Virus record (IMG/VR): IMGVR_UViG_3300030333_006518
Span: 1-36,704 of that record
Direction: 5' to 3' (one strand)
DNA: 36,704 nucleotides
DNA from: a virus
The position numbers and the translations under genes are program-made. Under the pieces are notes generated by a model. That model did not search any database and was not told the origin of the DNA. It was given only the letters and a program-made list of their open reading frames with translations. Below, piece by piece: positions 18,117 to 36,148 of this stretch (its first letter is position 1; each line of letters starts with the position of its first letter).

Positions 18117-19616
18117 TTATGGTATCATCCAAGGGCTCCCGTAATTTGAGTTTCGATGGTCCTTGCCAGTCATCCAGTCATCGAATCCGGGCAGGATGTC
18201 GTCGAGGAGCATGACGCTGCCCTTGAACTCCTTCGTCCCCCAGTTGGCCAGAGCGAGGCTCATCGCCAAGTCGTCGTTGACGCCGACACTCTCCAGCCTG
18301 CCGTTCTTCTGCATGCCGAATCGATTGAGTTCCTCCTCCACGCGATGTGTGTACTCCCTGCTCTTCTCATCCCCGTATGGGAGTTTTATCTTGCCCTGCT
18401 CGAACGCCATGAGCAGCGACATGAACAGTGTCTCCTTCTTCGTGCGCGTCGTCATGAAGGTGCGGATGGGGATGTCCGCCTTCATGTTCTGCAACTCCGC
18501 CTCGAACATGCGCTGGAAGTTGTTGCCCTCAAGTTCGATGAGTTCAGGCTTGAAGCGGTTGTTGAGCATGAGCATCATGTTCCTCTGGGCGTTGCTGCCG
18601 AGCCCCTTGTCGTGAACGACGTGCACAATCTGCTTGATGTCGTCGTCACCCAAGTACCGCATCACCGTCATGGCGGTGTAGTCGGCGTTCTTGTCGGAGG
18701 ATATGGCGGGGTCCCAACCGATGAAGTGCTGTCCCCACACCCCGTCGGCCTCGCCCAGTTCGTTGTAGTTGGTCTCCGCCCTCTCTATGAGGGTGAGTTC
18801 CTTGTCCCTCGCGGCCTCGAGTATGTCCATCGGGAACATGCTCGCCACATCGTGGATGGGCTCGCACAGGTACTCGCGGCTGAACTGTATCGCTGGCATG
18901 GAGAGTCTCCTCTGCTCCAGCGCCTCGAGGTTCCACCGCTCTGGCCACAGGGCGACTCCCTTCTTGTCGATGGCCGGGTAGGTCTCGACGCAGAACGTGT
19001 CCTTCTGCTCCAACTCCGCATACAGGTCGTTGTAGGAGAACGGCGTGCCGACCATCATGAGTTTGCTGGTGTGGTGGAGGACGGGGAGCAGGACGCCGTA
19101 GAACCAGTCTGCCGTCCTCTGCAACTCGGTCCCGCTGGTGCCCCAGAGGATATCGTCGCACACGACGACGTCCGGGTGGAAACCACGAGTCGCACCTCCG
19201 ACCGACTTCGCCATCATTCGGCTGCCGTTGGTGAACTCGAAGTACGACTTGGCCCAAGGCTTGCCCTCCGGCTTGAGCCCCCTCAGACAGTGCGCAGTCT
19301 CTATGTTGTTGCGGATGAAGCGCATGTGCTCGAGGGTCTGCTCCAGAGAGTGGGAGAAAATCATGATGTGGGTTCCGGGGTTGAACGCCGCCAGCCACAG
19401 CGCGTACGACATGAACAGGGTGGACTTGCCGTGGTCTCGTGACGCCTTCACGCAGTAGTAACTCTGGGTGTTGAGCCCCTTCTCCCACATCTCGTGGTGG
19501 TGGCTGTAGTGGAATCCCAGTATCTCGGTGAAGAAGTACTTGAACGACTTCTTGGACATCTCCCTGTCCATCTCCAAGACGAACTTCTTGACGCCCTCCT
19601 CGCTCATCTCACTCAC
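18117..19616 (-). CDS. terL: Terminase large subunit (packaging ATPase-nuclease)
   Basis: 499 residues from GTG 19616; ATG 19607 (Met4) with GGGTGAG upstream is an equally good start. ATPase domain: Walker A A58SRDHGKST66, Walker B VVVCDD (150-155) and coupling motif MVGTPF (188-193). Nuclease domain: Asp302 in GWDPAISSDKNADY, an acidic residue in ELIELEGNNF (361-363) and Asp448/449 in GVNDDLAMSLALANW, the RNase H-like metal-binding set. It cuts viral concatemers and pumps DNA through the portal. The arrangement with portal downstream is normal for HK97-type viruses. Confidence 0.93.
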   Translation of the reverse strand: MSEMSEEGVKKFVLEMDREMSKKSFKYFFTEILGFHYSHHHEMWEKGLNTQSYYCVKASRDHGKSTLFMSYALWLAAFNPGTHIMIFSHSLEQTLEHMRFIRNNIETAHCLRGLKPEGKPWAKSYFEFTNGSRMMAKSVGGATRGFHPDVVVCDDILWGTSGTELQRTADWFYGVLLPVLHHTSKLMMVGTPFSYNDLYAELEQKDTFCVETYPAIDKKGVALWPERWNLEALEQRRLSMPAIQFSREYLCEPIHDVASMFPMDILEAARDKELTLIERAETNYNELGEADGVWGQHFIGWDPAISSDKNADYTAMTVMRYLGDDDIKQIVHVVHDKGLGSNAQRNMMLMLNNRFKPELIELEGNNFQRMFEAELQNMKADIPIRTFMTTRTKKETLFMSLLMAFEQGKIKLPYGDEKSREYTHRVEEELNRFGMQKNGRLESVGVNDDLAMSLALANWGTKEFKGSVMLLDDILPGFDDWMTGKDHRNSNYGSPWMIP

Positions 19617-25079: not shown

Positions 25080-25325
25080 TCACATGCGCGATATACGGGC
25101 GTAGACCGCTGACAGGAATATCATCGAGCCGAAGAGTCCCACGAGGTAGAATGTGGCCTCGTTGGTGGACAACTCGTTAGCCCTGAAGACGAGTACTCCG
25201 AGCATGAGAAGGACTAGGCTGATAAGTTGGACCATGACCATGTCGACGACTACGCTTCTCTTAGGCGACCATAGGTCGAGACCCATTGCTGCGAACTGGG
25301 ATGGTATTGGCATTCCGCTCATCAT
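25080..25325 (-). CDS. Small two-span membrane protein
   Basis: 81 residues, ATG 25325 after AGGAGG. Two hydrophobic helices at about residues 26-47 (VVDMVMVQLISLVLLMLGVL) and 58-77 (FYLVGLFGSMIFLSAVYA) joined by a short polar loop. Size and topology recall a holin, but no lysin lies nearby and archaeal-virus lysis genes are poorly known. It could also belong to the nearby membrane/GTPase group. A 40-base gap follows before the next gene. Confidence 0.7.
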   Translation of the reverse strand: MMSGMPIPSQFAAMGLDLWSPKRSVVVDMVMVQLISLVLLMLGVLVFRANELSTNEATFYLVGLFGSMIFLSAVYARISRM

Positions 25326-25326
25326 A

Positions 25327-25977
25327 TCATCTTCCTCCTGTTAGTAGATTCCGTGTGAAGGAGCCTATCCCGGTTCCTACGTTCTCTATGAGATTCGGAT
25401 TGGCCATGGCGGCATTGAGAGCCCCGGCCATCATGCTCTGATTGGCCATGGCGAGGACCTGCTGCCTCTGCATCTCAGCCTGCTGTATCGCCTGATTGGA
25501 TGAGTTCTGCATGGTGGACAACTGGGCCATCACGTTCTCCACTGACAGGGTCTGCAGTTCCGATGGCAGTGATGTGACGTCGAGCCGCATCGAGCCGTCA
25601 TCGTCGTCTATTGCGAATGTGGCGTTCTTGAGTATGTTGAGGACTGACATGCTGATGATGCCGGATAGCATCTCCATCAGCGCTGGCATCTGAGGGCTGA
25701 CGATGAACTTGTCAATCGGTATGAGGGTCTTGAGCATCGAGTCGAGAATCTCGGTCTCCGACGGGGGTGCCACCGGCTGTCCGTAGTACTGGTTGTACTG
25801 GTCTCCGTACCCCGCTCCCGCGAACAGTCCCCCCATGAGCGTCTGTGCGGGCTGCTGTGCGCCCATACCCATGCTCTGCTGGGGCATCATCCCCGTCGGT
25901 GCCCCGGTCTGAGATAGGTTCAGGGTGGCGCTGGGCAATTGCTGCTGTGGTTGATTGTTTCCGAATCCGAACATCAT
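25327..25977 (-). CDS. Gln/Met/Gly-rich protein, function unknown
   Basis: 216 residues, ATG 25977 coupled to the upstream stop as ATGA. The first 70 residues are low-complexity Gln/Gly/Met/Pro. Residues 75-140 are hydrophobic/helical (LMEMLSGIISMSVLNILKNA) followed by a DDDDG turn, then a Gln-rich helical stretch with QQAEMQRQQVLAMANQ. No known domain. It precedes the two-span membrane protein in the same operon. A virion-associated role is likely. Confidence 0.68.
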   Translation of the reverse strand: MMFGFGNNQPQQQLPSATLNLSQTGAPTGMMPQQSMGMGAQQPAQTLMGGLFAGAGYGDQYNQYYGQPVAPPSETEILDSMLKTLIPIDKFIVSPQMPALMEMLSGIISMSVLNILKNATFAIDDDDGSMRLDVTSLPSELQTLSVENVMAQLSTMQNSSNQAIQQAEMQRQQVLAMANQSMMAGALNAAMANPNLIENVGTGIGSFTRNLLTGGR

Positions 25978-26912
25978 TGCTCACCTACTGGTTGTTGTGT
26001 GATGGGGGGTTGTTGATTAATTATCTGCTGGAAAGCAGGGGTCGGCTGCTGCATCTTGGCCAACTCGTCTTGGAATATTCTCAGGTCGAAAGTAACTGTG
26101 GTTATGTCGTTCAGTCCCGTCATAGGATTGGTGTAGTGATTGATGTTGATGCCCTTGGTGACTCTGGAGTCCCTCTCGAGCAACTCGAAGAAGGGCTCGT
26201 ACTTGGCGAGCATCTCGGGAACCGGTATCTCGTCCTTCTTCATCGTGGAGACGGGGACCGTCACTATCGACACTCCCCTCTTGACCTTGTCCTTGAATCT
26301 CGATGGCTGCATCTCGTTCTCCTTCTCCTGCTCGGCCTCCCACTTGCACAGGAGGTGGTACAGGTGCAGATGCTCTGGGCAGTAGGTGCCTCTCATCTTC
26401 CTGCCGCTCGTGACGTTGTCCATGGCGAGGAATGCGGATGGCTCGCCTGTCACGGGATTCTGCCAGTACATCTCCCACAGGCTGCGACCGGTGTCCTCGT
26501 CGCATATCTTGGCATAGAGGTTGTCATGCTGTATGAGTTCGGAGCAGTTGCACCCGTCGACCACGCATACGTTGGTCTGCTTGTTGTACAGGTACTTCGA
26601 GCCCCATAGTCTCGCTGGGCTGAACAGCCTTCTCTTCGCTGGGCGAAGTAATCTGTAGGCCTGCTTGATGTCCTTCTTGCGGGCCTTCCTCGGGTCAGCG
26701 TGAGTGCTGGGATAGAAGTTCACCTTGGGAACCTCTAGGTTCTTCTGCTCTGCCATCTGCTGCATCTGCTGCTGCGCTGCGGCCTGCTCCATGAGAGCGG
26801 CCCTGTTGAGTTGGGGATTGCCCTGAGCGGCCAGTGCCATGAGGTGGGCCTCGTTGACGACGCCGAGTGACTGCTGGGGTGTTTGAGCCATGGGATTCGG
26901 AATGCCGCCCAT
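25974..26912 (-). CDS. Cys/His-rich protein, possible zinc domain
   Basis: 312 residues. ATG 26912 shares its A with the upstream TGA; a longer in-frame reading to 27128 is rejected because it overlaps the AbrB gene. N-terminal 60 residues are Gln-rich helix. Residues 75-105 are very basic (RKARKKDIKQAYRLLRPAKR). Cys116, 121, 123, 137, 178, 189 and His181/183/186 (YCPEHLHLYHLLC) suggest a metal site. The C-terminus has a VTFDLRIFQDELAKM segment and a Gln/Pro tail. Not recognised; a nucleic-acid-binding structural protein is possible. Confidence 0.7.
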   Translation of the reverse strand: MGGIPNPMAQTPQQSLGVVNEAHLMALAAQGNPQLNRAALMEQAAAQQQMQQMAEQKNLEVPKVNFYPSTHADPRKARKKDIKQAYRLLRPAKRRLFSPARLWGSKYLYNKQTNVCVVDGCNCSELIQHDNLYAKICDEDTGRSLWEMYWQNPVTGEPSAFLAMDNVTSGRKMRGTYCPEHLHLYHLLCKWEAEQEKENEMQPSRFKDKVKRGVSIVTVPVSTMKKDEIPVPEMLAKYEPFFELLERDSRVTKGININHYTNPMTGLNDITTVTFDLRIFQDELAKMQQPTPAFQQIINQQPPITQQPVGEQ

Positions 26913-27106
26913 CACGCCTGACCACCCTCCTTGACTGGTAGGACCTTGATGTACATTGAACTTCCGTCTGTGTCGAGCCTCCAACTCAGACGGTCCCCGG
27001 CAGCGAGGGAGAACTGCTCGACCAACCACATTGGGACAGTGGTTCTGAGGCTGTTGGAGCCACCACCGGTGGAGACCAGAGCAGTATCCCCATTGGTCTT
27101 GGCCAT
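26912..27106 (-). CDS. AbrB/SpoVT-type DNA-binding protein
   Basis: 64 residues, ATG 27106. Residues 20-58 fit the swapped-hairpin AbrB fold: NSLRTTVPMWLVEQFSLAAG, DRLSWRL, then a strand MYIKVLP. This fold is common in archaeal transcription regulators and MazE-type antitoxins. It lies between the small GTPase and downstream genes; no toxin partner is next to it, so a regulator of the viral operon is more likely than an antitoxin. A weak AT-rich box (CTTTTGAATG near 27125-27134) precedes the start. Confidence 0.8.
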   Translation of the reverse strand: MAKTNGDTALVSTGGGSNSLRTTVPMWLVEQFSLAAGDRLSWRLDTDGSSMYIKVLPVKEGGQA

Positions 27107-27152
27107 GTGAGTCGCATCCGTTGTTCATTCAAAAGGCTATTGATGGGGTCAA

Positions 27153-27866
27153 TTATGAGGTCAGCAAATCAAGCATGCTTATTTCCACGTTCCAGCCTAT
27201 GCGCGTGGCCATGAAAGAGCGCTTGCTTCTGATGTTCGCCTTCTGCAGCCTGATTAGGTCGTCGCGGAACGGGTCGAACACCTTGTGCTCGCCTATCCTC
27301 CCCTGCTGCCACAGGAGAGCGGCCTTGTCATCGAAGAAGCGGTCCGCCTTGTTTGCGACCAGCATCAGCACCTTCGGGGCGTACTTCTTCCCCTTCCATC
27401 TGCTCCTGAGCGTGCGATAGCGATACTTCCTGCCTACGAGTACGTCGACGAGGTACTTGAATCCGGCAACCTGCTCCATGCCCTCGGCCCCTCCTCTGAA
27501 TGCCCTGTCGTCGAACATGTACACCACGGCCTCCACCTGTCTCGCAACCATGTCGTCCACCCACAGGTTCCAGAATCTCTCCTGACCCCCCATGTCGGCG
27601 GAGTTGACGACACGCTTCTCGCCCTTCCAACTTATCCTCTTCTTCGATGCTCTAGGCAGCAGGTACCTGTTGAGTATGCGGAAGTGCTCCGTCCTCTCGG
27701 ACTCCGGTATCTCCTCCATCTCGCCGGGAGTGGTCATGTAGCGGTCCAGAGTGGTCTTGCCGACCATGCTGGTGCCGTAGATGCCGACGCTTCTCGGCTT
27801 CCATGCGTTGTAGAGATGCTGGCCCCACAACGCTGCGCCTACCAGAACGCTGCCAGTCGCCGACAT
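27153..27866 (-). CDS. Arf/Ras-like small GTPase with membrane-anchor N-terminus
   Basis: 237 residues, ATG 27866 with GGTGAG upstream. G1 is G31TSMVGKT38 in VGIYGTSMVGKTTL. G3 is D91MGGQ95 followed by ERFWNLW, close to the Arf/Galpha DxGGQ switch II. G4 is N172KAD175. A G5-like MATRIGWNVE follows at the end. Thr45/46 may serve as the switch I threonine. Residues 5-22 (GSVLVGAALWGQHLYNAW) form a short hydrophobic helix, possibly a membrane anchor as in SR-beta. The two genes just upstream encode membrane proteins. It is expected to bind and hydrolyse GTP. Such a GTPase is rarely described in archaeal or bacterial tailed viruses. Confidence 0.83.
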   Translation of the reverse strand: MSATGSVLVGAALWGQHLYNAWKPRSVGIYGTSMVGKTTLDRYMTTPGEMEEIPESERTEHFRILNRYLLPRASKKRISWKGEKRVVNSADMGGQERFWNLWVDDMVARQVEAVVYMFDDRAFRGGAEGMEQVAGFKYLVDVLVGRKYRYRTLRSRWKGKKYAPKVLMLVANKADRFFDDKAALLWQQGRIGEHKVFDPFRDDLIRLQKANIRSKRSFMATRIGWNVEISMLDLLTS

Positions 27867-27872
27867 CCGTAA

Positions 27873-28130
27873 TCAACTCACCAGACCGAGAAGCCACTGA
27901 CCGGCCTCCTCGACCTTGGAGGCTGCCCAGTCGCCCGTGAGTTCCCACACGCCGATACTCGTGTAGTACTCGAGAGCGCTGGTGCCGAGCACGCCGATTG
28001 CGAAGGCTATGACCGTGCGTACCCATCCTATGCCCCATTCGTACACGTTGTCGACCGTGTTGGCAAGGTGCATTGCGCGAAGCGTTTCTTCCACTGAATC
28101 GTCTTTAGGGGTCTTGAAGATGCGTCCCAT
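27873..28130 (-). CDS. Small membrane protein of GTPase block
   Basis: 85 residues; ATG 28130 shares its A with the upstream TGA, preferred over the GTG one codon earlier. One clear hydrophobic helix at about 40-58 (VRTVIAFAIGVLGTSALEY) and a C-terminal amphipathic helix ending GQWLLGLVS. It lies six bases ahead of the GTPase gene, suggesting a joint role at a membrane. No family recognised. Confidence 0.72.
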   Translation of the reverse strand: MGRIFKTPKDDSVEETLRAMHLANTVDNVYEWGIGWVRTVIAFAIGVLGTSALEYYTSIGVWELTGDWAASKVEEAGQWLLGLVS

Positions 28131-28708
28131 CACTCATCACCACGGGCCTTCTTGTATCTAAGGTCCGGGGTTCCATCCTTCTTGAGACGTATGTTACCCT
28201 CGTTGGCGCCGAGGTTGAGGGAGGGTGTGATTGAGGCCTCGTGAACGGGGGTGCCCGGATTGAATGTGCTGTGCATGTCCGAGCCTAGATTCAGCCCGTC
28301 TCTCGCTGAGCCCGTGGGGCTGAAGCCGCTCGGCACCTTGCCGGGGTTCTGCTCCATCCACCTGAGTTCCTTCTCGAGTTCGGCCTCAGCCTTGCGCAGT
28401 TCCATCTCCGACCTCCTCTGGTCGAAGGTGACCTGCATGTTGCGGAACCTAGACTGCTGGGTCCTCTGCATCTCGTTGATGCGTGCCCTCTCCTGCAGGT
28501 TCCTCTCGAAGAACATCTTGAACATGTAGTAGGCGAGGCCCTGCACCGCGAAGGCCCCCATACCGTAGTTCAGCCCGTTCATCCAGACGTCTTCGTTCAC
28601 TAGCCATAGTTCAGAGTCGAAGATGGCGACTGCCACTCCGATGAGTGCCGACTGGCTCAAAATGAGTCCCATGAGCCTTATCTCGGCGTCGTTGTTGTCT
28701 TGAGACAT
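28130..28708 (-). CDS. Two-span membrane protein with cytoplasmic coiled coil
   Basis: 192 residues from ATG 28708 (MSQDNNDAEIR) with AGGGGTCAT ahead; a longer reading to 28795 is rejected because its start lies inside the promoter palindrome. Hydrophobic helices at about 12-30 (LMGLILSQSALIGVAVAIF) and 45-63 (MGAFAVQGLAYYMFKMFF), then a long charged coiled coil at 64-125 (RRSEMELRKAEAELEKEL). The tail is Gly/Asn-rich and disordered. It leads the operon with the small membrane protein and the GTPase, and could recruit the GTPase or another partner through the coiled coil. Confidence 0.72.
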   Translation of the reverse strand: MSQDNNDAEIRLMGLILSQSALIGVAVAIFDSELWLVNEDVWMNGLNYGMGAFAVQGLAYYMFKMFFERNLQERARINEMQRTQQSRFRNMQVTFDQRRSEMELRKAEAELEKELRWMEQNPGKVPSGFSPTGSARDGLNLGSDMHSTFNPGTPVHEASITPSLNLGANEGNIRLKKDGTPDLRYKKARGDE

Positions 28709-28778: not shown

Positions 28779-28795
28779 ATGTATAGTCTATACAT
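28779..28795. promoter_or_regulatory. 17-bp perfect palindrome, candidate operator
   Basis: ATGTATAGTCTATACAT is perfectly self-complementary around a central T. It stands between the TATA-like box (28796-28810) and the predicted start of transcription. An outer pair TGTCCGAT (28773-28780) and ATCGGACA (28848-28855) is inverted around the whole promoter. A dimeric repressor site is likely. Confidence 0.55.
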
Positions 28796-28844: not shown

Positions 28845-29429
28845 CTAATCGGACATTTGTCGTTGCAGACGTTTCGCCTGCAGACGGCGATACATACGCC
28901 TCCGCCGGGCGTCTCGCTTGTATTTTTCCCATTCGGCTTCTCTCTCTCGATGGTTTCTGAGCATCCGCTCTTTCTCATATTGATTCCTAGGCCAATGGCC
29001 TTCCTTCTCATATCGTCCCCAAAGTTCCTTCCCTTGACTTGACCTATCGAATGATGGTATGATGACTGCGCCATCCTCCTCGTCTCGGATATTCGCAGAC
29101 AAATCATACAAAGCAGAGGCCATGCCCATTCTACGATGAGATGGCTCAGTTTTAGTGCCCCAAGCGTAGTCCCTATCTCCGCCAGTCAACACAAGATGCG
29201 ATAGGGCATCGCTAGTCATGACAGAGCCTTGAGTCAATTCCGGTCTTTGTCCCGGCCTGTAAATACCGCTCTCATAGCCCAACCCGAAGTCACTAGCAAC
29301 CATGGGGAAGACCTCTCCGGTTTCAGGGTGGATGAAGTTGGCATGGTATTGCTTGTCTCCCACCTGCTCTATTGAGTCGTAATCAAGTGGCATCTTGAGC
29401 AGTGCCCATGCTTGCTCGAAGGGATTCAT
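28845..29429 (-). CDS. AW-LLK-tagged GNAT-like protein
   Basis: 194 residues, ATG 29429 coupled as ATGA. Tag MNPFEQAWALLK (1-12). Residues 30-45 HPETGEVFPMVASDFGL are shared with the gene at 29890-30576, so the two are paralogues. Residues 115-130 EPSHRRMGMASALYDLSANI resemble the acetyl-CoA-binding motif A (R/Q-xx-G-x-G/A) of GNAT acetyltransferases. The C-terminal 50 residues are strongly basic (KYKRDARRRRMYRRLQAKR). The body is AT-rich. Substrate unknown; a packaged acetyltransferase that modifies host or viral proteins early in infection is a speculation from tag plus domain. Confidence 0.72.
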   Translation of the reverse strand: MNPFEQAWALLKMPLDYDSIEQVGDKQYHANFIHPETGEVFPMVASDFGLGYESGIYRPGQRPELTQGSVMTSDALSHLVLTGGDRDYAWGTKTEPSHRRMGMASALYDLSANIRDEEDGAVIIPSFDRSSQGKELWGRYEKEGHWPRNQYEKERMLRNHREREAEWEKYKRDARRRRMYRRLQAKRLQRQMSD

Positions 29430-29893
29430 TCTCTTAACCTCCTCAACTGCTCCTCTATGTGGGCTATTCTTTCATCTGTTGAGAAACGACCACCGGAAGT
29501 ATCGAGAAAACCTCTCGTCTCTTCATAATAGTCAGGGTCTTCCTTGTAGTCAGCCAAGAGTTGCTCTACATCTCTAGCAGTCTCCTCACGACTCTGAATC
29601 TCATGAGGTAGATTTCTCGCCATCCCAACCATAGTAGTCTCCGGGTCGCTATCCAAATGGTGCATTTGCTTGGTTTCGGGTGCTACTCTGATTTGTGGGA
29701 TGCCGCCTCTCATGCTAGGAGCGTTCACATCAGAACCCATGAGTGCATATTCTAAAGCCTCGTCATAACTCATAGGCCAATAACCCGTATCGGGGTCGCC
29801 TTCCTTACCACCTTGATACAACACATCCCTAACTTCACCATCGATGTTGTATGGTGCTTTGAGCAAGGCCCACGCTTGGTCGAAGGCAGTCAT
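29426..29893 (-). CDS. AW-LLK-tagged protein, function unknown
   Basis: 155 residues from ATG 29893 (ATGA with the upstream stop, AGGAGGCAAAG in front); an in-frame start farther upstream lies inside the previous gene. Tag MTAFDQAWALLK. Body polar and acidic with YWPMSYDEALEYALMGSD and a C-terminal helix (DERIAHIEEQLRRLRE). No enzyme motif seen. Its position between two tagged GNAT-like genes suggests the same delivery or assembly path. Confidence 0.72.
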   Translation of the reverse strand: MTAFDQAWALLKAPYNIDGEVRDVLYQGGKEGDPDTGYWPMSYDEALEYALMGSDVNAPSMRGGIPQIRVAPETKQMHHLDSDPETTMVGMARNLPHEIQSREETARDVEQLLADYKEDPDYYEETRGFLDTSGGRFSTDERIAHIEEQLRRLRE

Positions 29894-30576
29894 CTTTGCC
29901 TCCTGCTGGGCCATCTGTCCCTCCCCTCGTGCTTGGCCCACATTCTTTGGGCATTTTCGGTTTGACTATCATCACGCACGATTACATGGGCACCTCGTGT
30001 CTCTCTGTCTAGGATATCGGCGGCCATATCGTACATGGCAGTCCCATGACCCTGATGCTTGTAGTTCCTGAACTGATTGAGGTATTCCTCTAGACTCATG
30101 TCGAAATCAGGGTCATTCTGAACTTTCTGACGATATGCCCTAATTTTATTGCCTACAGGACCAGCCTCTTTGACTCTCGGTGTACCTATCATGTTTCTAT
30201 TGCCGTAGTTATCATCGCTTTGCTGAGGACCAAAGAAAGCATCCGCTATCGAATGCTCATAATCAGCGTCCTGAGAGAAATACTTCTCACGAATCCCTGC
30301 ATCAGGCACATCACCTATATCCTCTACAGGATGATTAGGCGATAGAATGTTCATTTCTATCTCAGGATGTAAAAATCTCCCATGTATCGTGTCTACTTCT
30401 GGCAGGGTGACATCGGCAACCATCGGGTGAATCTCACCAGTCTCAGGGTGCTTGAAGTCAGCGACATACCGAACCATTTCATCACCAGCATCATCCTGTG
30501 AAGTGCTATGTCTAGTCAGACTGCCCGGCACCATCGGCATCTTGAGCAGGGCCCACGCTTGGTCGAAGGGGTCCAT
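29890..30576 (-). CDS. AW-LLK-tagged GNAT-like protein, paralogue
   Basis: 228 residues; ATG 30576 shares its A with the upstream TGA. Tag MDPFDQAWALLK. HPETGEIHPMVADVTLPE matches the paralogue at 28845-29429. The C-terminal part YKHQGHGTAMYDMAADIL followed by GAHVIVRDDSQTENAQRMW has the GNAT layout: Q-x-x-G-x-G/A cofactor loop, then the strand and the N-A-Q-R-M-W helix typical of motif B. Acetyl-CoA binding is likely; substrate unknown. Confidence 0.76.
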   Translation of the reverse strand: MDPFDQAWALLKMPMVPGSLTRHSTSQDDAGDEMVRYVADFKHPETGEIHPMVADVTLPEVDTIHGRFLHPEIEMNILSPNHPVEDIGDVPDAGIREKYFSQDADYEHSIADAFFGPQQSDDNYGNRNMIGTPRVKEAGPVGNKIRAYRQKVQNDPDFDMSLEEYLNQFRNYKHQGHGTAMYDMAADILDRETRGAHVIVRDDSQTENAQRMWAKHEGRDRWPSRRQR

Positions 30577-31406
30577 CAGACCACCCTCAACGTGCCTCGG
30601 TTCTTGAAGTGCCTCGCCCTGTTCGCATGCTCGGGCTCGAGCGTCAGCCTCCCACCCTGCGTGTGGCTGACGTCCATGTGGTCCCCAGTGCCGTAGATGC
30701 CCCTCCTCCGTCTCTCAGCGTGGAGTTCGCGCTGGTACTTGCGCCGCTCAGGGGTCTTCTCGTACTGCTTGTCGTATGCCAACTTGCGCCTCATCGCCTC
30801 GGGCGACTTGCGCTCCTTGAGCAGTCGGAAGGCGATGTCCATCGGCTCCTCGGACTTCAACTGGGTGTATCCCATACCCTCCGGCGTCCCTCCCACGTCA
30901 TCACCTCCCGCGTCTGAGTGGGTGAAGACCCTCTCCACTCTCAATGCTTTCGGCGTCCAAGGCTGCTGCATCTCCCCTCTCCATTCATCCCTGCGCAGCA
31001 TGGTGGTCTGCAATTTCGCTGTGCCGGGGTAGTCAGGGTGCTCGCGTACTATGCCCACTATAGTATTTCCATTCGAGAGGGGCCTTCCCCTGATGTCCAC
31101 GCCATCCGGGTTCCTGTCCCTGTCGAGTATGTGGGTCCTGATTGCCACGCTGGAAGGGGCGCCGGGGAGGAACCTACCGTTATTCCCGACAATGCCCTTG
31201 TCCCTCAGAACCTCTGCGATGCGCTGCTTGACCTCGTCGGACTCCTCCTTCGAGTGGATTCTCCTCTCGTCCCCGAGCCTATGCCCAGCATGCCCCCTCC
31301 AGAAATCACGTTGGAACTGGATGCCTGCTACTGGGGGATGGGGCGGCCTGCGTCTGGAGACCCTGTATTTGAGGACGAGCCAAGCGACGTCCATCAAGTC
31401 GCTCAA
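30576..31406 (-). CDS. Doubly tagged protein with HNH-like C-terminus
   Basis: 276 residues from TTG 31406; ATG 31394 is the alternative but would shorten the tag. Tag MSDLMDVAWLVLK at the N-terminus and a second, EEPMDIAFRLLKER (30816-30851), before the C-terminal unit. That unit is very basic (RRKYQRELHAERRRRG) and ends with GDHMDVSHTQGGRLTL...HANRARHFKNRG, resembling degenerate HNH endonuclease folds of phages (D-H/V-S-H ... N-R-A-R). The middle is beta-rich. Two tags with two modules suggest joining of two tag-headed genes. Confidence 0.72.
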   Translation of the reverse strand: MSDLMDVAWLVLKYRVSRRRPPHPPVAGIQFQRDFWRGHAGHRLGDERRIHSKEESDEVKQRIAEVLRDKGIVGNNGRFLPGAPSSVAIRTHILDRDRNPDGVDIRGRPLSNGNTIVGIVREHPDYPGTAKLQTTMLRRDEWRGEMQQPWTPKALRVERVFTHSDAGGDDVGGTPEGMGYTQLKSEEPMDIAFRLLKERKSPEAMRRKLAYDKQYEKTPERRKYQRELHAERRRRGIYGTGDHMDVSHTQGGRLTLEPEHANRARHFKNRGTLRVV

Positions 31407-31418
31407 ACCACCACATCA

Positions 31419-32054
31419 CTATCTTCTATCGCTCATCATCTGCGTGAGTTGCTGATACATGCTGTTGGCCATCGCCTGAAGTTCCATCTTCCTCTGAGGG
31501 TCCTGCTCTGCCCGTGCAGCGGCGTCCAACTCGTGCACTCTCTGCCTCGCTGCCTGCAGTTCCATCATATCGGAGGTCGCTGAAGAGACGCCCATCTGGT
31601 TGTAGTTCTTGAGGAGCGACCAAGCCATGTCGAACGGCACATCGGAGCGTTGAACCATGTCTGCGCCCTTTGGCTGCAGTGTCATGATGTTTCTCCTTCT
31701 CTCTCCCTCCATGGGACCAAAAGGTGGATTTTTAGGATTATTTTGCTCCCTTCGAGCAGCATCTTGAATCGCTTTCCTTCTCTCTGCCATTAGCCTCTCC
31801 GCACTCAAGGCGTTCGCAGGGTCGTAGTACTGCCTGTTCCCTTCGGTTCCTGCGTATATGCCGCTGGTTCTGGTGTAGGGCAGGTTGTGCTGTCTCGCTA
31901 TTTCGGCGAGGGTGGTAGGCTCGTCACGACCGAAGCCGCGAACCGCGAGTCCTTTCTTCTTCTCGTCCTTGTCCGGCTTGGCCGTGTCCATGGGCGACTT
32001 GGGCGACGGCTTGCCCACCGCTATCACGAGAGTCATGCCCTTCTTGCCCTTCAT
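31419..32054 (-). CDS. Protein with internal AW-LLK tag
   Basis: 211 residues, ATG 32054 coupled as ATGA. The N-terminal half is basic, with a possible small HTH (TTLAEIARQHNLPYTRTSGI). The tag DVPFDMAWSLLK lies at about 138-150 (31608-31643), followed by a helical C-terminus rich in Gln/Met (QAARQRVHELDAAARAEQD). A base-composition change to AT-rich DNA around 31690-31790 lies just ahead of the tag. Function unknown. Confidence 0.7.
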   Translation of the reverse strand: MKGKKGMTLVIAVGKPSPKSPMDTAKPDKDEKKKGLAVRGFGRDEPTTLAEIARQHNLPYTRTSGIYAGTEGNRQYYDPANALSAERLMAERRKAIQDAARREQNNPKNPPFGPMEGERRRNIMTLQPKGADMVQRSDVPFDMAWSLLKNYNQMGVSSATSDMMELQAARQRVHELDAAARAEQDPQRKMELQAMANSMYQQLTQMMSDRR

Positions 32055-32302
32055 TGTCTCGCCTCCTGCTGCATCCTTCTGACCAGTGCCAGCAACTCTT
32101 CCCTGCTCATCTCATCGTACTCGTCCTCGGGCAACTGGTCCAAGAACCGCTCAAGTCCCAATCGTTCGGAGGCTTTAGCGGCTCTTCTCTGCTCAGGCGT
32201 CATCTCCGCCTGCTGCTGGGGGTCGTCGGGGTAACCCCGGTCGGTGCTGTCGTAGAACGCCTTCTCCAGTGATTCCCATGCCATCTCGAATATATCAGTC
32301 AT
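32051..32302 (-). CDS. Small tagged acidic protein
   Basis: 83 residues, ATG 32302, ATGA-coupled at both ends. Begins MTDIFEMAWESLEKAF, a tag variant in which the terminal LLK is SLEK. The remainder is helical and acidic (LDQLPEDEYDEMSREELLAL). No known family; the charge is opposite to the very basic gene directly upstream, so the two might interact. Confidence 0.7.
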   Translation of the reverse strand: MTDIFEMAWESLEKAFYDSTDRGYPDDPQQQAEMTPEQRRAAKASERLGLERFLDQLPEDEYDEMSREELLALVRRMQQEARQ

Positions 32303-32535
32303 CTCGCTCTTGCCACCCTTACTAATCCTGTCTGCCTTCTCATCTTCGGACGTACGTTTCCACGACCGACTTGCCTCTTGTACTTGGCCTTCGTCTTGCG
32401 AGTCTTGACTTTGCGAGCCTGTCGCTGAACTTTGGCCTGTGCGACCTTCTTAGGCCTTTGAGAGATGTACGAGTCTTTCTTATAGCCGAATTGACCTTTG
32501 ATAAGGTCAAAGAAGACGTCAAAGGATTCCGCAAT
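32299..32535 (-). CDS. Very basic tagged protein with probable ATT start
   Basis: The frame that ends TGA at 32299-32301, overlapping the next ATG as ATGA, runs back to an in-frame stop at 32545 without any ATG, GTG or TTG early in it. ATT 32535, five bases after GGTGAG, is the best start and gives 78 residues. The start IAESFDVFFDLIKG is a tag variant. The rest is Lys/Arg/Gln-rich (KVQRQARKVKTRKTKAKYKR), so nucleic-acid binding is likely. The overlapping reading at 32340-32534 from TTG is a shadow. A sequencing slip near the start is the alternative. Confidence 0.5.
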   Translation of the reverse strand: MAESFDVFFDLIKGQFGYKKDSYISQRPKKVAQAKVQRQARKVKTRKTKAKYKRQVGRGNVRPKMRRQTGLVRVARAR

Positions 32536-32552
32536 GGTGACTCACCTGCACC

Positions 32553-32562
32553 GGCATATGAA
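32553..32562. promoter_or_regulatory. Possible bidirectional TATA-like site
   Basis: GGCATATGAA with a central CATATG palindrome lies about 28 bases before the plus-strand ATG 32585 and about 22 bases before the minus-strand ATT 32535. The layout parallels the stronger divergent site at 34219-34230. Weak by sequence. Confidence 0.35.
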
Positions 32563-32584
32563 CCAGCAGCATTTTACAGTTCCG

Positions 32585-33100
32585 ATGAAACGGGGTGTCG
32601 TGGCGGAACCTGCGGGCCAACTTTTTCGGTCATCTGACATAGGTGTTGTTCTCGGCTCTCACACCGCAGGTCCCGTCACGCTCAGCAAGCAGGACCACGA
32701 GCGTGCCATGGATGCCGCCTTCAGCGTACTACAAGCCGATGACGACATCGGGAAGGGTGGCCCGCTCGCTCTTCTCGCTCCTCTCGCTGCAGGCGCCGGT
32801 CGTCTGGCAATGGGCGCGGGTCGCGCTGTGCTGGGCAGCAAGATGGGTCGGATGGGTCTTGCTGGCTACGCAGGCGCCAAGGTGGCGGGCGCTGGTAAGG
32901 AGTCGACTGACGCAGGCACGGCACAGGCACCGCAGACAGGCAATCCCGCACAGCAGGGAGCAGGCAACTCGGCGTTCGACAAACTGAAAGAGCAGCAAGA
33001 GCAGCAGGCGATGATGGAGCAGCAGCAACAGCAGCAGATGAGCCAGAACCTACGCGCCAGTGCGAATCCAGCGTCTACGAATACCACTCAGTTTTCCTGA
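32585..33100 (+). CDS. Plus-strand Gly-rich/Gln-rich protein with tag variant
   Basis: 171 residues from ATG 32585 (MKRGVVAEPAG), chosen because a TATA-like site is 28 bases upstream; in-frame ATGs at 32534 and 32558 are alternatives. Residues 38-48 HERAMDAAFSVLQ are a tag variant. Then a glycine-rich hydrophobic segment (LALLAPLAAGAGRLAMGAGR, GYAGAKVAGAG), then a Gln/Met-rich coiled tail (KLKEQQEQQAMMEQQQ). One of only two plus-strand genes. Its 3' end overlaps the HMG-CoA lyase 3' end by 51 bases. Possibly membrane-active or an internal head protein. Confidence 0.65.
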   Translation: MKRGVVAEPAGQLFRSSDIGVVLGSHTAGPVTLSKQDHERAMDAAFSVLQADDDIGKGGPLALLAPLAAGAGRLAMGAGRAVLGSKMGRMGLAGYAGAKVAGAGKESTDAGTAQAPQTGNPAQQGAGNSAFDKLKEQQEQQAMMEQQQQQQMSQNLRASANPASTNTTQFS

Positions 33101-33994
33101 TATGAAGCGCGTCAGCCGCTCTGTCAGCGGCGTGTCTGTTATCGACTCGGCATAGAGGCGGGCGGCCTCGAGCCTCGACCTGTTTATCTCCTGCTCTATC
33201 GGTATGCCGTAGAACTCGGCCCAGTCTACGATATACTCGGTCGGCAGGTTGCCGAAACTGCCCGGAACGTACGGGCACCCGCCCAGTCCGCCTATGCTGG
33301 AGTCGAACTCCCTGATGCCGGAGAGGTACGCCGTGGTCAGCAGTTTGTCGAATGACATCTTCTTGCTCTGGGGCTCGTGCAGGTGCAGTGCGAGCCTGTC
33401 CATGGACACGTGCTTCCTCGCCATCTTGATGACCTCCGTCATCCTCCCCTCCGTGGCCATCCCGGCTGTGTCGGCGAGCACGACAGTCTCGGCGTTCTCG
33501 GAGCACCACAGCAGGCAGTCCTCCACCGACTTGCTGTCCCAATCGTCGAAGGGGGAGTCGAAAGCGAGGCTGATGTAGGCCCTGACGCTCTCCTTGGACA
33601 CGCTCTCGAGGGCGGAGTCGTACTTGTCGAACACCTCGGACAACTCGAACGTGCCGTGATTCTCGTTCAGGAACGCGGGAGAGGGGCTGACGTAGACGTT
33701 GAGCAGTTTAGCGCCCACGCTCTCCGCAATCTCGACGCCCTTCTTGTTGGGAACGAGCACTGAGAGGCCTGTCACCCCCTTCAGTTTATCAAGCAGCAAT
33801 AAAAACAGGTCCTTCGTGTCCTCCATCTGGGGCACGTGCTTCGGATTCACGAAACTGCCGATTTCTATCCGGTCCAGACCGGCGTCCCTGAGCATCTCGA
33901 TGAGGTTGAACTTGCTCTCGACGGTGATATCGCCCTCGAGGTTCTGCAGACCGTCCCTCGGACCCACCTCGAAAAGGCGAATGACCTCGGACAT
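33050..33994 (-). CDS. HMG-CoA lyase-like enzyme
   Basis: 314 residues, near the usual length; ATG 33994 after AAGGTC, 12 bases behind a tagged gene and in the same operon. TIM-barrel lyase motifs: FEVGPRDGLQN (Arg13-Asp14), RIEIGSFVNPKHVPQM, metal ligands His204-x-His206, and GGLGGCPYVPGSFGNLPTE with the catalytic-loop Cys240 and Asn249. HMG-CoA lyase splits 3-hydroxy-3-methylglutaryl-CoA into acetyl-CoA and acetoacetate. The usual HxHDTxG is HLHEPQS here, so the substrate may differ. It has no tag. Its presence suggests a virus-borne metabolic gene acting on host isoprenoid/leucine-linked metabolism. Confidence 0.85.
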   Translation of the reverse strand: MSEVIRLFEVGPRDGLQNLEGDITVESKFNLIEMLRDAGLDRIEIGSFVNPKHVPQMEDTKDLFLLLLDKLKGVTGLSVLVPNKKGVEIAESVGAKLLNVYVSPSPAFLNENHGTFELSEVFDKYDSALESVSKESVRAYISLAFDSPFDDWDSKSVEDCLLWCSENAETVVLADTAGMATEGRMTEVIKMARKHVSMDRLALHLHEPQSKKMSFDKLLTTAYLSGIREFDSSIGGLGGCPYVPGSFGNLPTEYIVDWAEFYGIPIEQEINRSRLEAARLYAESITDTPLTERLTRFISGKLSGIRRRWIRTGA

Positions 33995-34006
33995 GACCTT
34001 GCGGAA

Positions 34007-34198
34007 TCACCGTTGGACATCAATGTACCGGGCGAACAGCATGCTGGCCTCCTCTTCCATTATTGGGTCACCGCTGTTCATCGCCTTGGTGAGCGTGTTT
34101 ATGATGAGCGCCTTCTCAGAATCGCTGAACTGCGAGCCTTCTGGCTGAGTCTTCAACAGGAACCAAGCCTTGAGGAAGGCGTCCGGGGTCTGCGTCAT
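34007..34198 (-). CDS. Small AW-LLK-tagged helical protein
   Basis: 63 residues from ATG 34198 (MTQTPDAFLKAWFLLK); an ATG at 34213 is rejected because the TATA-like box at 34219-34230 is 27 bases before 34198, which makes the latter a leaderless start. The rest is helical (DSEKALIINTLTKAMNSG, EEEASMLFARYID). It heads the operon that also carries the HMG-CoA lyase. Function unknown. Confidence 0.72.
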   Translation of the reverse strand: MTQTPDAFLKAWFLLKTQPEGSQFSDSEKALIINTLTKAMNSGDPIMEEEASMLFARYIDVQR

Positions 34199-34218
34199 CA
34201 GTAGTAATAGCATGGCTG

Positions 34219-34230
34219 TTTTATATATGA
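34219..34230. promoter_or_regulatory. Bidirectional leaderless promoter
   Basis: TTTTATATATGA: the near-symmetric TATATAT core is centred at 34225, 25 bases before the plus-strand ATG 34250 and 27 bases before the minus-strand ATG 34198. Both distances are those expected between an archaeal TATA box and the transcription start, so both transcripts should begin at or next to their start codons. Confidence 0.65.
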
Positions 34231-34249
34231 ACCCAGCGACGAGAGGTGC

Positions 34250-34372
34250 ATGGGGTCTGTGGCAGGGTCAATGTGGAGAATCATATCCGACGTGCTGGTA
34301 GACCTCGGCATCAAAATCGGCATTCTGGCGGTGTTCCTGCTCACCGCGCTCGCGTGGGCGCTCACGAACTAA
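34250..34372 (+). CDS. 40-residue single-span membrane miniprotein
   Basis: ATG 34250 to TAA 34370-34372 on the plus strand. Residues 17-38 form one hydrophobic helix (GIKIGILAVFLLTALAWALT) behind a short polar start. It is leaderless behind the divergent TATA-like box, with no ribosome site. It is opposite in direction to its neighbours and fills the whole gap between two operons. Possible membrane-perturbing or regulatory miniprotein; a second start at ATG 34271 is in frame. Confidence 0.6.
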   Translation: MGSVAGSMWRIISDVLVDLGIKIGILAVFLLTALAWALTN

Positions 34373-34376
34373 AAAG
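34370..34376 (-). terminator. Oligo-T end of the right-hand tagged operon
   Basis: On the minus strand CTTTTTA follows about 18 bases after the stop of the metalloprotease gene (34394). Short T-runs are the usual archaeal termination signal. It precedes the next promoter on the same strand. Confidence 0.4.
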
Positions 34377-34393
34377 ACTGGTGGAAGTACTCT

Positions 34394-35092
34394 TCACGAG
34401 ACTATGGTGTCATCGGTGATGTCATACTCGTAGTCCGGGTTGCTCGGGACGGATGCTCCCGCTTGTCTAAGTTCGTATAGCCTAGCGTCCAAGTATCCTT
34501 TGGCACCGGGAAGTACCTCTGATATGCCTCCAGAGGAGTCTCTTCCTCTCATGGCCATCCTCGTGGCCTGCTCCAGCACATGGGCCGGCATCTCACGCTG
34601 AGCGAAGCCGCCTTGAACGAAATCGCTATCCAGAGCATGACCCACCTCATGAGCCACGAAAGGCGCCACTTCCTCACCGAATCGCCTTGCGGTCTCATCC
34701 TCATACAGATGCTCGTCTTTATTATCCCAAGCAGCCGTTTCAAGGGCATACGGCAGCCCAAAAACCCCAGTCGTCATCGCCATGTTGACCTTCTTGTCTA
34801 TGTGACTCGGCCATATCTCCTCCGCCTCGGCCTCGGTAATCAATTTACCACGTATGCCTTCGAGCGGGTCGTCGTAGAATACGAATCCGGGCAGGCCCGG
34901 AACGGGCTGAAACACGTTGTGCCTGTACATCGTGATGGCTCTCGCCGGTGGTAATCCCATGGGTTTCGTTTTACCGTCCTCGAAACCCCTCAATTCGGGG
35001 AACCTCTTGTCCCTGCTCCTTCTCGTCTCCACGTCGTAGTCGAACTGGGTGACGCCCTTCAGCAGAGACCACGCTCGGTCGAAGGGACTCAT
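34394..35092 (-). CDS. AW-LLK-tagged HExxH metalloprotease-like protein
   Basis: 232 residues, ATG 35092 coupled as ATGA. Tag MSPFDRAWSLLK. His148-Glu-Val-Gly-His152 in APFVAHEVGHALDSDF is a strong zincin active site (two zinc His and the catalytic Glu); a third ligand is not certain. An FEDGKTKPMGLPPARAITMY segment precedes. No signal peptide. A tagged peptidase packed into the virion could act on head proteins, the host envelope or host factors; these are inferences. It is the third gene of the right-hand operon. Confidence 0.78.
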   Translation of the reverse strand: MSPFDRAWSLLKGVTQFDYDVETRRSRDKRFPELRGFEDGKTKPMGLPPARAITMYRHNVFQPVPGLPGFVFYDDPLEGIRGKLITEAEAEEIWPSHIDKKVNMAMTTGVFGLPYALETAAWDNKDEHLYEDETARRFGEEVAPFVAHEVGHALDSDFVQGGFAQREMPAHVLEQATRMAMRGRDSSGGISEVLPGAKGYLDARLYELRQAGASVPSNPDYEYDITDDTIVS

Positions 35093-35553
35093 CCGTGAGT
35101 CCCCCTAATGACTTTGACTGGTAAGGGTGTATCACCGTGACCACGAGCGAAGAGTTCGGCCATTCTGTGTCTCCCTTCATGGTATACATCGGGGTCAAAA
35201 TCGGAAAAAACATACGGCATACCGAACTTGATGTCCTCTCCCGCCTCTGCCCTATCCATCATATCTTGGTAGAAATTATCATCTGCTTCTCTTGGAGAAG
35301 ATTTTCTCCCCAATGCGTCAATATATATGCCTCCTTTTTCCTCACCCGAAGTCATTTTTCCATATTCACCGGGCGTTATGTACTGAATCTCTCCTTGTCC
35401 TTTACTTGGGTCAGCGGGAACATATCCATACACATTATCCATTGACCTCCAATGGGGGTCGTCATCACCTTGCGTGACGAACTGTATACCGGGAATACCT
35501 GTCTCGTATACAGGCATCTTGAGCAGGGCCCAAGCCTCGTCGAACGCGCCCAA
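35089..35553 (-). CDS. AW-LLK-tagged protein with ParB/sulfiredoxin-like motif
   Basis: 154 residues from TTG 35553, eight bases after GGGAGG and two bases after the previous stop. Tag MGAFDEAWALLK. The C-terminal YHEGRHRMAELFARGHGDTP and LPVKVIRG match the 'E-G-R-H-R ... G ... I-P-V' signature of ParB-N/sulfiredoxin-like domains found in many phage-borne effector proteins. The middle is AT-rich DNA. The fold may bind nucleotide; here it is only the C-terminal portion of such a domain, so activity is uncertain. Confidence 0.74.
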   Translation of the reverse strand: MGAFDEAWALLKMPVYETGIPGIQFVTQGDDDPHWRSMDNVYGYVPADPSKGQGEIQYITPGEYGKMTSGEEKGGIYIDALGRKSSPREADDNFYQDMMDRAEAGEDIKFGMPYVFSDFDPDVYHEGRHRMAELFARGHGDTPLPVKVIRGTHG

Positions 35554-35554
35554 C

Positions 35555-36148
35555 CTAGTAGCCTCCCTGCATGGGAGCCTCTCCTGATTGATTACGGGCA
35601 GCCAACCTGCCCTTCCTGTGGTTCGCCTCGACCAGTTCCTTGGTCTTGTGGCTCATCGTGAGCGCCTTGGCGTCTCTGTACGGCATCTTCAGCGTCTCGA
35701 CTAGGAAGTCTATGAGCGCCTCGGGGTCCAAGTCCTTGTGCGAGTACTCCTCGACGCCGTTGTCCTCCTTGGGCATCTGACCTCCCATCATCGGGGCCAT
35801 CTTGAATACCTCGGGTCTGCCTTGTTCGCCTATCCGAGAGAAGACGCTGCCCCTGCTCATCTGTGCCGCTGCGTCTATTGGGTCCTGCCCCTCATTATAG
35901 CGGTAAGCAGTTAGCCCACTACCGTCCCCACGATAGGCGTCTGCTGTCCCTCGTCTAGCGAGCATGCCCTGTATGGCGGGGTGCATGGTGCCGGAACCCC
36001 TGCCTTTGTTACGCAGCAGTTGTATCAGCGTGCGCTCGGGGGCGAAAATTGATTCAGGGTAATCGGTGTATCGTATATTTCGGTCTTGTATCTGCTGCTC
36101 CTCTAGCGCCTTGAGCATCGACCATGCGGCATCGAAGGGCGCTACCAT
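35555..36148 (-). CDS. AW-LLK-tagged protein, first gene of right operon
   Basis: 197 residues from ATG 36148, with no ribosome site but an AT-rich promoter-like box 28-48 bases ahead, so probably leaderless. Tag MVAPFDAAWSMLKALEE. Body: PERTLIQLLRNKGRGSG, RYNEGQDPIDAAAQMSRG, and a C-terminal helical part with EALIDFLVETLKMPYRDAKA and basic end. Similarity to known families is not recognised. As the first gene it marks the start of the tagged series. Confidence 0.72.
   Translation of the reverse strand: MVAPFDAAWSMLKALEEQQIQDRNIRYTDYPESIFAPERTLIQLLRNKGRGSGTMHPAIQGMLARRGTADAYRGDGSGLTAYRYNEGQDPIDAAAQMSRGSVFSRIGEQGRPEVFKMAPMMGGQMPKEDNGVEEYSHKDLDPEALIDFLVETLKMPYRDAKALTMSHKTKELVEANHRKGRLAARNQSGEAPMQGGY

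Follow-up and report, generated by a model that had tools for sequence, protein, structure and literature searches.

An Arf-Type Small GTPase Gene Fixed beside Two Membrane-Protein Genes in a Clade of Magrovirus-like Tailed Viruses

The viral DNA analyzed here (IMG/VR record IMGVR_UViG_3300030333_006518, positions 1 to 36,704; the window hereafter, 36,704 nucleotides) encodes a small GTPase of Arf type behind two membrane-protein genes. Among the contigs compared here, which were selected by their terminase and come from magrovirus-like tailed viruses, the GTPase belongs to the core gene set. The identity of the protein as a viral Arf-type GTPase is well supported, and its function we infer. 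The features on which the argument draws are the following.

27153..27866, minus strand: Arf-type small GTPase, 237 aa, identified by motifs, predicted fold, and profile search; N-terminal helix at residues 3-22, G1 at 31-39, G2 probably at T59, G3 at 91-95, conserved basic insert at ~146-165, G4 at 172-175, G5 at 219-227
27873..28130, minus strand: one-span membrane protein (TM1), 85 aa from the ATG at 28130, in 94/94 loci
28130..28708, minus strand: two-span membrane protein (TM2), 192 aa, in 94/94 loci
26912..27106, minus strand: AbrB/MazE-type DNA-binding protein, 64 aa, accessory (MazE_antitoxin E 4.5e-5, just under the cut-off)
25974..26891, minus strand: conserved protein downstream of AbrB, 305 aa, with invariant C109, C171, H174, and H176
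28780..28794, no strand assigned: 15 bp palindrome TGTATAGTCTATACA (TGTATAG-T-CTATACA), upstream of the block, lineage-specific
18117..19616, minus strand: terminase large subunit (TerL), matching PHROG terminase families; independent marker
33050-33994, minus strand: HMG-CoA lyase-like enzyme (NCBIfam PRK05692 E 1.5e-58, below its cut-off), auxiliary gene

Motifs and Conservation of the GTPase

A first-pass annotation, made from the sequence by a model, had described a 237-residue GTPase with G1, an Arf-type G3 (DMGGQ), a G4 of NKAD, a G5-like loop, and a hydrophobic N-terminus. The open reading frame is real and its coordinates are correct: IMG/VR holds 80 viral relatives at 55-98% identity, and strong purifying selection acts on the gene, with dN/dS about 0.04 (0.03-0.04 against five of the six near relatives compared, 0.19 against L013). 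When 82 sequences are aligned, the Walker A GKTT, R58-T59 (the probable G2), and D91 and G94 of G3 are invariant to nearly invariant. G4 is invariant, and the G5-like core MATRIGWNV (M219-T221-G224-W225-V227) is invariant or nearly so. The claimed G1, G4, and G5-like loop are therefore conserved, and the GTP-specific motifs are kept rather than lost among the relatives. The succession of G1 GxxxxGK[ST], G3 DxxG, and G4 [NT]KxD is that of the Ras-like small GTPase superfamily (TRAFAC).

G3 follows the pattern D91-x-[G/A]-G-[Q/E/D/H]...L101-W102, in which L101 and W102 are invariant; they lie 10 and 11 residues past D91, which we take to be the register of L77-W78 in Arf1. The Arf type of this motif is thus confirmed, but the Gln that it shows in the window is not general: at position 95, where Arf has its catalytic Gln, just 47 of the 82 sequences keep Q, while 28 have E and 6 have D, so that Glu, Asp, or His replaces it in ∼40% of the viral GTPases. 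Hydrolysis of GTP may therefore be weak, or a second protein may have to assist it in trans. As for the N-terminus, it is hydrophobic and a helix is predicted at residues 3-22, but there is no clear transmembrane span (19-residue Kyte-Doolittle hydropathy 0.52-1.28, below the transmembrane threshold); its moment, considered with an amphipathic membrane helix of the Arf kind in mind, is 0.29.

Predicted Fold

An AlphaFold2 model of the GTPase was built from 36 sequences (pLDDT 75, pTM 0.77). A Foldseek search with this model returned 806 PDB chains at E ≤ 0.001, the top rows being small GTPases and the best E value, 4e-7, belonging to Rab/Rho. In a second look with VIA, Arl8b (Z 14.2), ARL1 (13.9), and Arf1 (13.6) lead, followed by Asgard ArfR1 (Z 13.1), with Rag and Rab5 close behind; 998 of the 1000 rows have Z ≥ 8. 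Because Rag and Rab5 come so near the Arf-type scores, rank in VIA cannot by itself separate the families. Some Arf rows also take in the N-terminal helix, as with 2ksq, which is aligned from residue 7. The predicted model thus gives the protein a small-GTPase G-domain fold and, by both searches, places it with small GTPases and not with packaging or unrelated P-loop ATPases.

Placement among Small GTPases

A profile of the viral GTPase was run against 222 Asgard genomes. Its best non-viral matches were Asgard Arf-like GTPases with the motif D(M/L)GGQxxFWxLW (E 1e-7 in one genome), and three of these, scanned with Pfam, all scored above the Arf cut-off. In the reciprocal direction, the Asgard Arf-like profile found the window GTPase as the sole significant open reading frame among 328 (E 4.7e-14, 47.0 bits), a score that is inflated because the set had been picked by the viral profile. 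The other profiles in this comparison of families, which used Asgard sequences only, gave 21.1 bits for Asgard ArfR, 16 for another Asgard group, 6.8 for Rab/Ras, 5.6 for ArvA, and 3.0 for Rag; the ArfR set, three of whose four sequences were chosen by Pfam Arf score, still beats the Rab, Rag, and ArvA profiles. Among the genomes searched, the closest cellular relatives found are Asgard Arf-family GTPases. A maximum-likelihood tree of G domains puts the viral sequences at the end of a long branch whose position is poorly supported (48-68 along the deeper nodes).

Standard family models respond faintly. Pfam and NCBIfam small-GTPase models match the viral GTPase below cut-off only; the PF00025 gathering score is not reached by any of 36 members, three of which match (best E 0.03), and the window GTPase has no Pfam Arf match at E 0.1. 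The SRPRB profile, used as a check on SR-beta, does not match the GTPase, whose N-terminus also falls under the transmembrane threshold. Membership in Rag/Gtr is not supported: the protein stops 10 residues past G5 and has no C-terminal roadblock domain of the kind found in the ∼300 aa type, in keeping with the 3.0 bits above. Membership in the ArvA family was rejected in spite of a local likeness in G1-G2, since the ArvA score is at noise level and ArvB is absent from the 12 large viral records. The first-pass annotation had called the protein Arf/Ras-like; "Ras-like" in the narrow sense is disfavored by the 6.8 bits of the Rab/Ras profile against 47 for Asgard Arf-like, and, while the motifs, the fold, and the reciprocal search agree on a small GTPase, it is the G3 and the profile scores that speak for the Arf type.

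The Asgard Arf-like GTPases (L331, L332, L334, L336-L338, L340) are homologous to it in the G domain and have a near-identical G3, but they carry an N-terminal domain of ∼100 aa where the viral protein has a short helix, and they are without the basic insert seen in the virus. Two membrane-protein genes accompany the viral gene; the Asgard set was compared by protein alone. The N-terminal extension of these Asgard proteins is itself conserved (IRTLEC..C.RFD...). Eukaryotic Arl8b, ARL1, and Arf1 resemble the viral GTPase in fold (Z 13.6-14.2), in GGQ(x)5LW in register, and in a predicted N-terminal helix; they differ in that identity is 15-17%, the Gln is not conserved in the viral proteins, and long inserts separate the viral G motifs. 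ArvA (OapA) of Euryarchaeota is an archaeal small GTPase that drives vesicle formation together with partner genes, and it has a local match of GIYGxxxxGKTTL...IPxExRT to the viral protein, but its G3 is DMPG where the viral G3 is DxGGQ. Its partner ArvB (OapB, PF09846) is found in 0/12 large viral records, and the neighbors scanned have no Pfam match to it. Giant viruses also encode small GTPases (for example the mimivirus Rab, 5xc5); theirs are of Rab/Ras type and serve viruses of eukaryotic hosts, whereas here the gene belongs to the core set of a whole lineage of tailed viruses of archaea.

The Fixed Triad and Its Variable Neighbors

The first-pass annotation had placed a two-span coiled-coil membrane protein and a one-span membrane protein just upstream of the GTPase, and this is borne out in all 94 loci that have 1.5 kb upstream of the gene (a few share one contig). 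Transcription on the minus strand runs TM2, TM1, GTPase, AbrB-like protein, 305-aa protein. TM2 and TM1 overlap by stop and start (TGATG) in the window, where the GTPase starts six bases past the TM1 stop; the median intergenic gaps are 5 nt (TM2-TM1) and 6 nt (TM1-GTPase). The program-made list of open reading frames had slightly over-extended both membrane proteins at their starts, which we corrected. TM1 begins with a highly conserved 35-aa domain, MG(R/W)(I/L)FKTPxDD...TLR..H..N..D..YE, followed by a variable tail. In TM2, both the hairpin and the charged helical (coiled-coil-like) tail are conserved; the second span is weak by hydropathy in the window copy, the segment itself being conserved. 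The C-terminus of TM2 reads RLKKDGTPDLRYK (28130-28210, minus strand) in several members and is missing from others. That the GTPase always adjoins the same two membrane genes suggests a virus-owned, GTP-controlled membrane machinery.

The flanks of the triad are less constant. The AbrB gene reported downstream is present in the window but occurs in 54/94 loci, so it lies outside the core block, and it was rejected as a core partner. Similarly, the block had been said to stand behind a promoter with a palindrome: the palindrome is real and adjoins an AT-rich (TATA-like) stretch, but it occurs once in the window and is kept in the nearest relatives only, and it was rejected as a general operator of the block. 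The four invariant residues of the 305-aa protein could form a metal site. A PDB search with its AlphaFold model gave nothing informative (best Z 3.6), and the single viral structure that it matches carries no name. Further downstream, the same cluster encodes a further membrane protein with two spans (81 aa, 25080-25325, minus strand), which is conserved in 45/45 contigs.

Distribution and the Identity of the Virus

For a test of universality, contigs were chosen by TerL and not by the GTPase. In one clade, where at least 9.5 kb of upstream sequence was required, 45/45 such contigs have the gene; in a second clade, at ∼50% TerL identity, at least 9.3 kb was required and 29/29 have it, or 74/74 with enough sequence. 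GTPase and TerL distances are correlated over 101 loci (Mantel r 0.91), and 0/2000 permutations reached as high a value. The first-pass annotation had called a tailed-virus copy unusual, and the searches agree: tblastn against the 50,697 phage records of INPHARED found no match, nor did a search of PHROGs. A PDB sequence search gave nothing significant (top profile row, the GTP-binding protein 8oun, E 0.18), PADLOC gave no match, and the named small-GTPase matches among BFVD predicted viral structures come from giant viruses of eukaryotes. The magrovirus and archaeal tailed virus literature examined does not mention a GTPase; prior annotation elsewhere is possible. Three GTDB matches (L084, L085, L086) lie on contigs binned with Asgard, Maricaulis, and Cytophagaceae MAGs. 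The Asgard-labeled L084 carries the whole viral block and is therefore read as a mis-binned virus; contigs of this kind are a contamination trap for Asgard GTPase surveys.

The triad shares strand and cluster with the terminase, portal, protease, and MCP genes and sits at the head of that cluster, upstream of the terminase. The window is a 36.7 kb fragment, and the large records that carry the GTPase measure 90-118 kb. PolB is found in 11/12 of these and a Cpn60/TCP-1 chaperonin (PF00118) in 12/12, one of which was typed with NCBIfam as thermosome type; another large record has a clamp-loader gene (RFC small subunit-like). MCM, tried as a host marker like PCNA, had no match above cut-off. Magrovirales are marked by a genome of 90-110 kb, PolB, a chaperonin, and a tailed-virus module, and the related records (95-118 kb) agree with this, while PCNA_N is above cut-off in 0/12 large records, so not every feature listed for Magrovirales is present. 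Four clades of MGII viruses have been described, with thermosomes in clade 1 only (PMC5332604); given the thermosome-type chaperonin, the window was therefore placed in the thermosome-bearing group, probably as a fragment of a magrovirus-like (Poseidoniales) tailed virus. An HMG-CoA lyase-like gene, such as the window carries, has also been reported for Aoguangviridae (PMC10768690).

Two other observations concern the window. A 1863-aa open reading frame (6705-12296, minus strand) in the portal to prohead protease interval has no confident family match. A tag, [P/A]F(D/E)xAWxLLK, occurs in 12 copies against 0.1 expected from shuffling, at 1643-2415 and 28845-36148 on the minus strand, mostly close to the N-terminus of proteins that differ in other respects, with two copies internal; relatives' loci have 0-11 copies. 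It may serve these proteins as a common signal for docking, packaging, or cleavage.

Proposed Function and Alternatives

The first-pass annotation had proposed membrane remodeling, egress, or a host-conflict function as candidate roles. Our preferred reading, held tentatively and at somewhat less than even confidence, is that the GTPase is an Arf-type GTP membrane switch with TM1 and TM2 as its receptor and effector, acting in late egress or membrane-anchored assembly. The N-terminal helix and basic insert would recruit the G domain to the host membrane on its inner side, where the conserved parts of TM1 and TM2, probably facing the cytoplasm, could contact it; the host membrane would then be reshaped or opened for virion release, or assembly anchored there. 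A late task seems most likely because the triad heads the virion-morphogenesis cluster. ArvA offers an archaeal precedent by analogy: it is related to Arf, has an amphipathic helix at its N-terminus, and drives the formation of vesicles in Haloferax, where vesicle release falls on its deletion and rises on its overexpression (PMC10927574). Against the membrane switch stand the moderate hydrophobicity of the N-terminal helix, the frequent replacement of the catalytic Gln, the long viral branch in the tree, and the inflated reciprocal score. The more specific proposal of a dedicated Arf-like, GTP-driven membrane-remodeling machine of the three proteins for virion release, with no known tailed-virus counterpart, we regard as rather unlikely.

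The constant place of the triad ahead of the other morphogenesis genes, together with a presence as universal as that of TerL, would also suit factors that scaffold heads or tails or control their quality, or a membrane-tethered packaging apparatus; GTP hydrolysis would then time a step of morphogenesis instead of bending membranes, and nucleic acid or capsid could be bound by the conserved basic insert. Two dedicated membrane proteins would, however, be unusual for tailed-virus head or tail assembly, and the Arf-like N-terminal helix also speaks against this explanation, which we judge unlikely. Manipulation of the host is a slightly weaker candidate: the viral switch would compete with or hijack host small GTPases, for example in vesicle formation of the ArvA type, and thereby block the release of vesicles, alter the surface, or exclude superinfection. 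ArvA homologues are widespread in Euryarchaeota (PMC10927574), and the viral G1-G2 stretch is locally like ArvA (38% over 37 columns), but a gene that is universal and inherited along with TerL is more likely to have a core function than to serve in host conflict, and the negative ArvB and PADLOC results point the same way. That the proteins are virion components acting on the membrane at genome entry is improbable; they share cluster and strand with virion genes, yet a cytoplasmic GTP switch would need packaging and no virion signal was seen. Finally, a P-loop ATPase or packaging motor resembling a GTPase by chance would suit the below-cut-off family matches but is scarcely credible beside the invariant NKAD, the Arf-type G3, the fold and reciprocal profile searches, and a terminase encoded by a separate gene.

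For the membrane-switch reading, the wider setting is a large, oceanic group of GTPase-bearing viruses among the magroviruses, which are widespread marine archaeal viruses. No description of magrovirus egress was found in the literature examined, and the triad provides a specific candidate for such a machine, one that is open to testing. Arf-type switches, with which eukaryotic cells shape membranes, are usually discussed in Asgard archaea and eukaryotes; here one is found in viruses that belong with a different group of archaea, and it bears on how such GTPases have spread.
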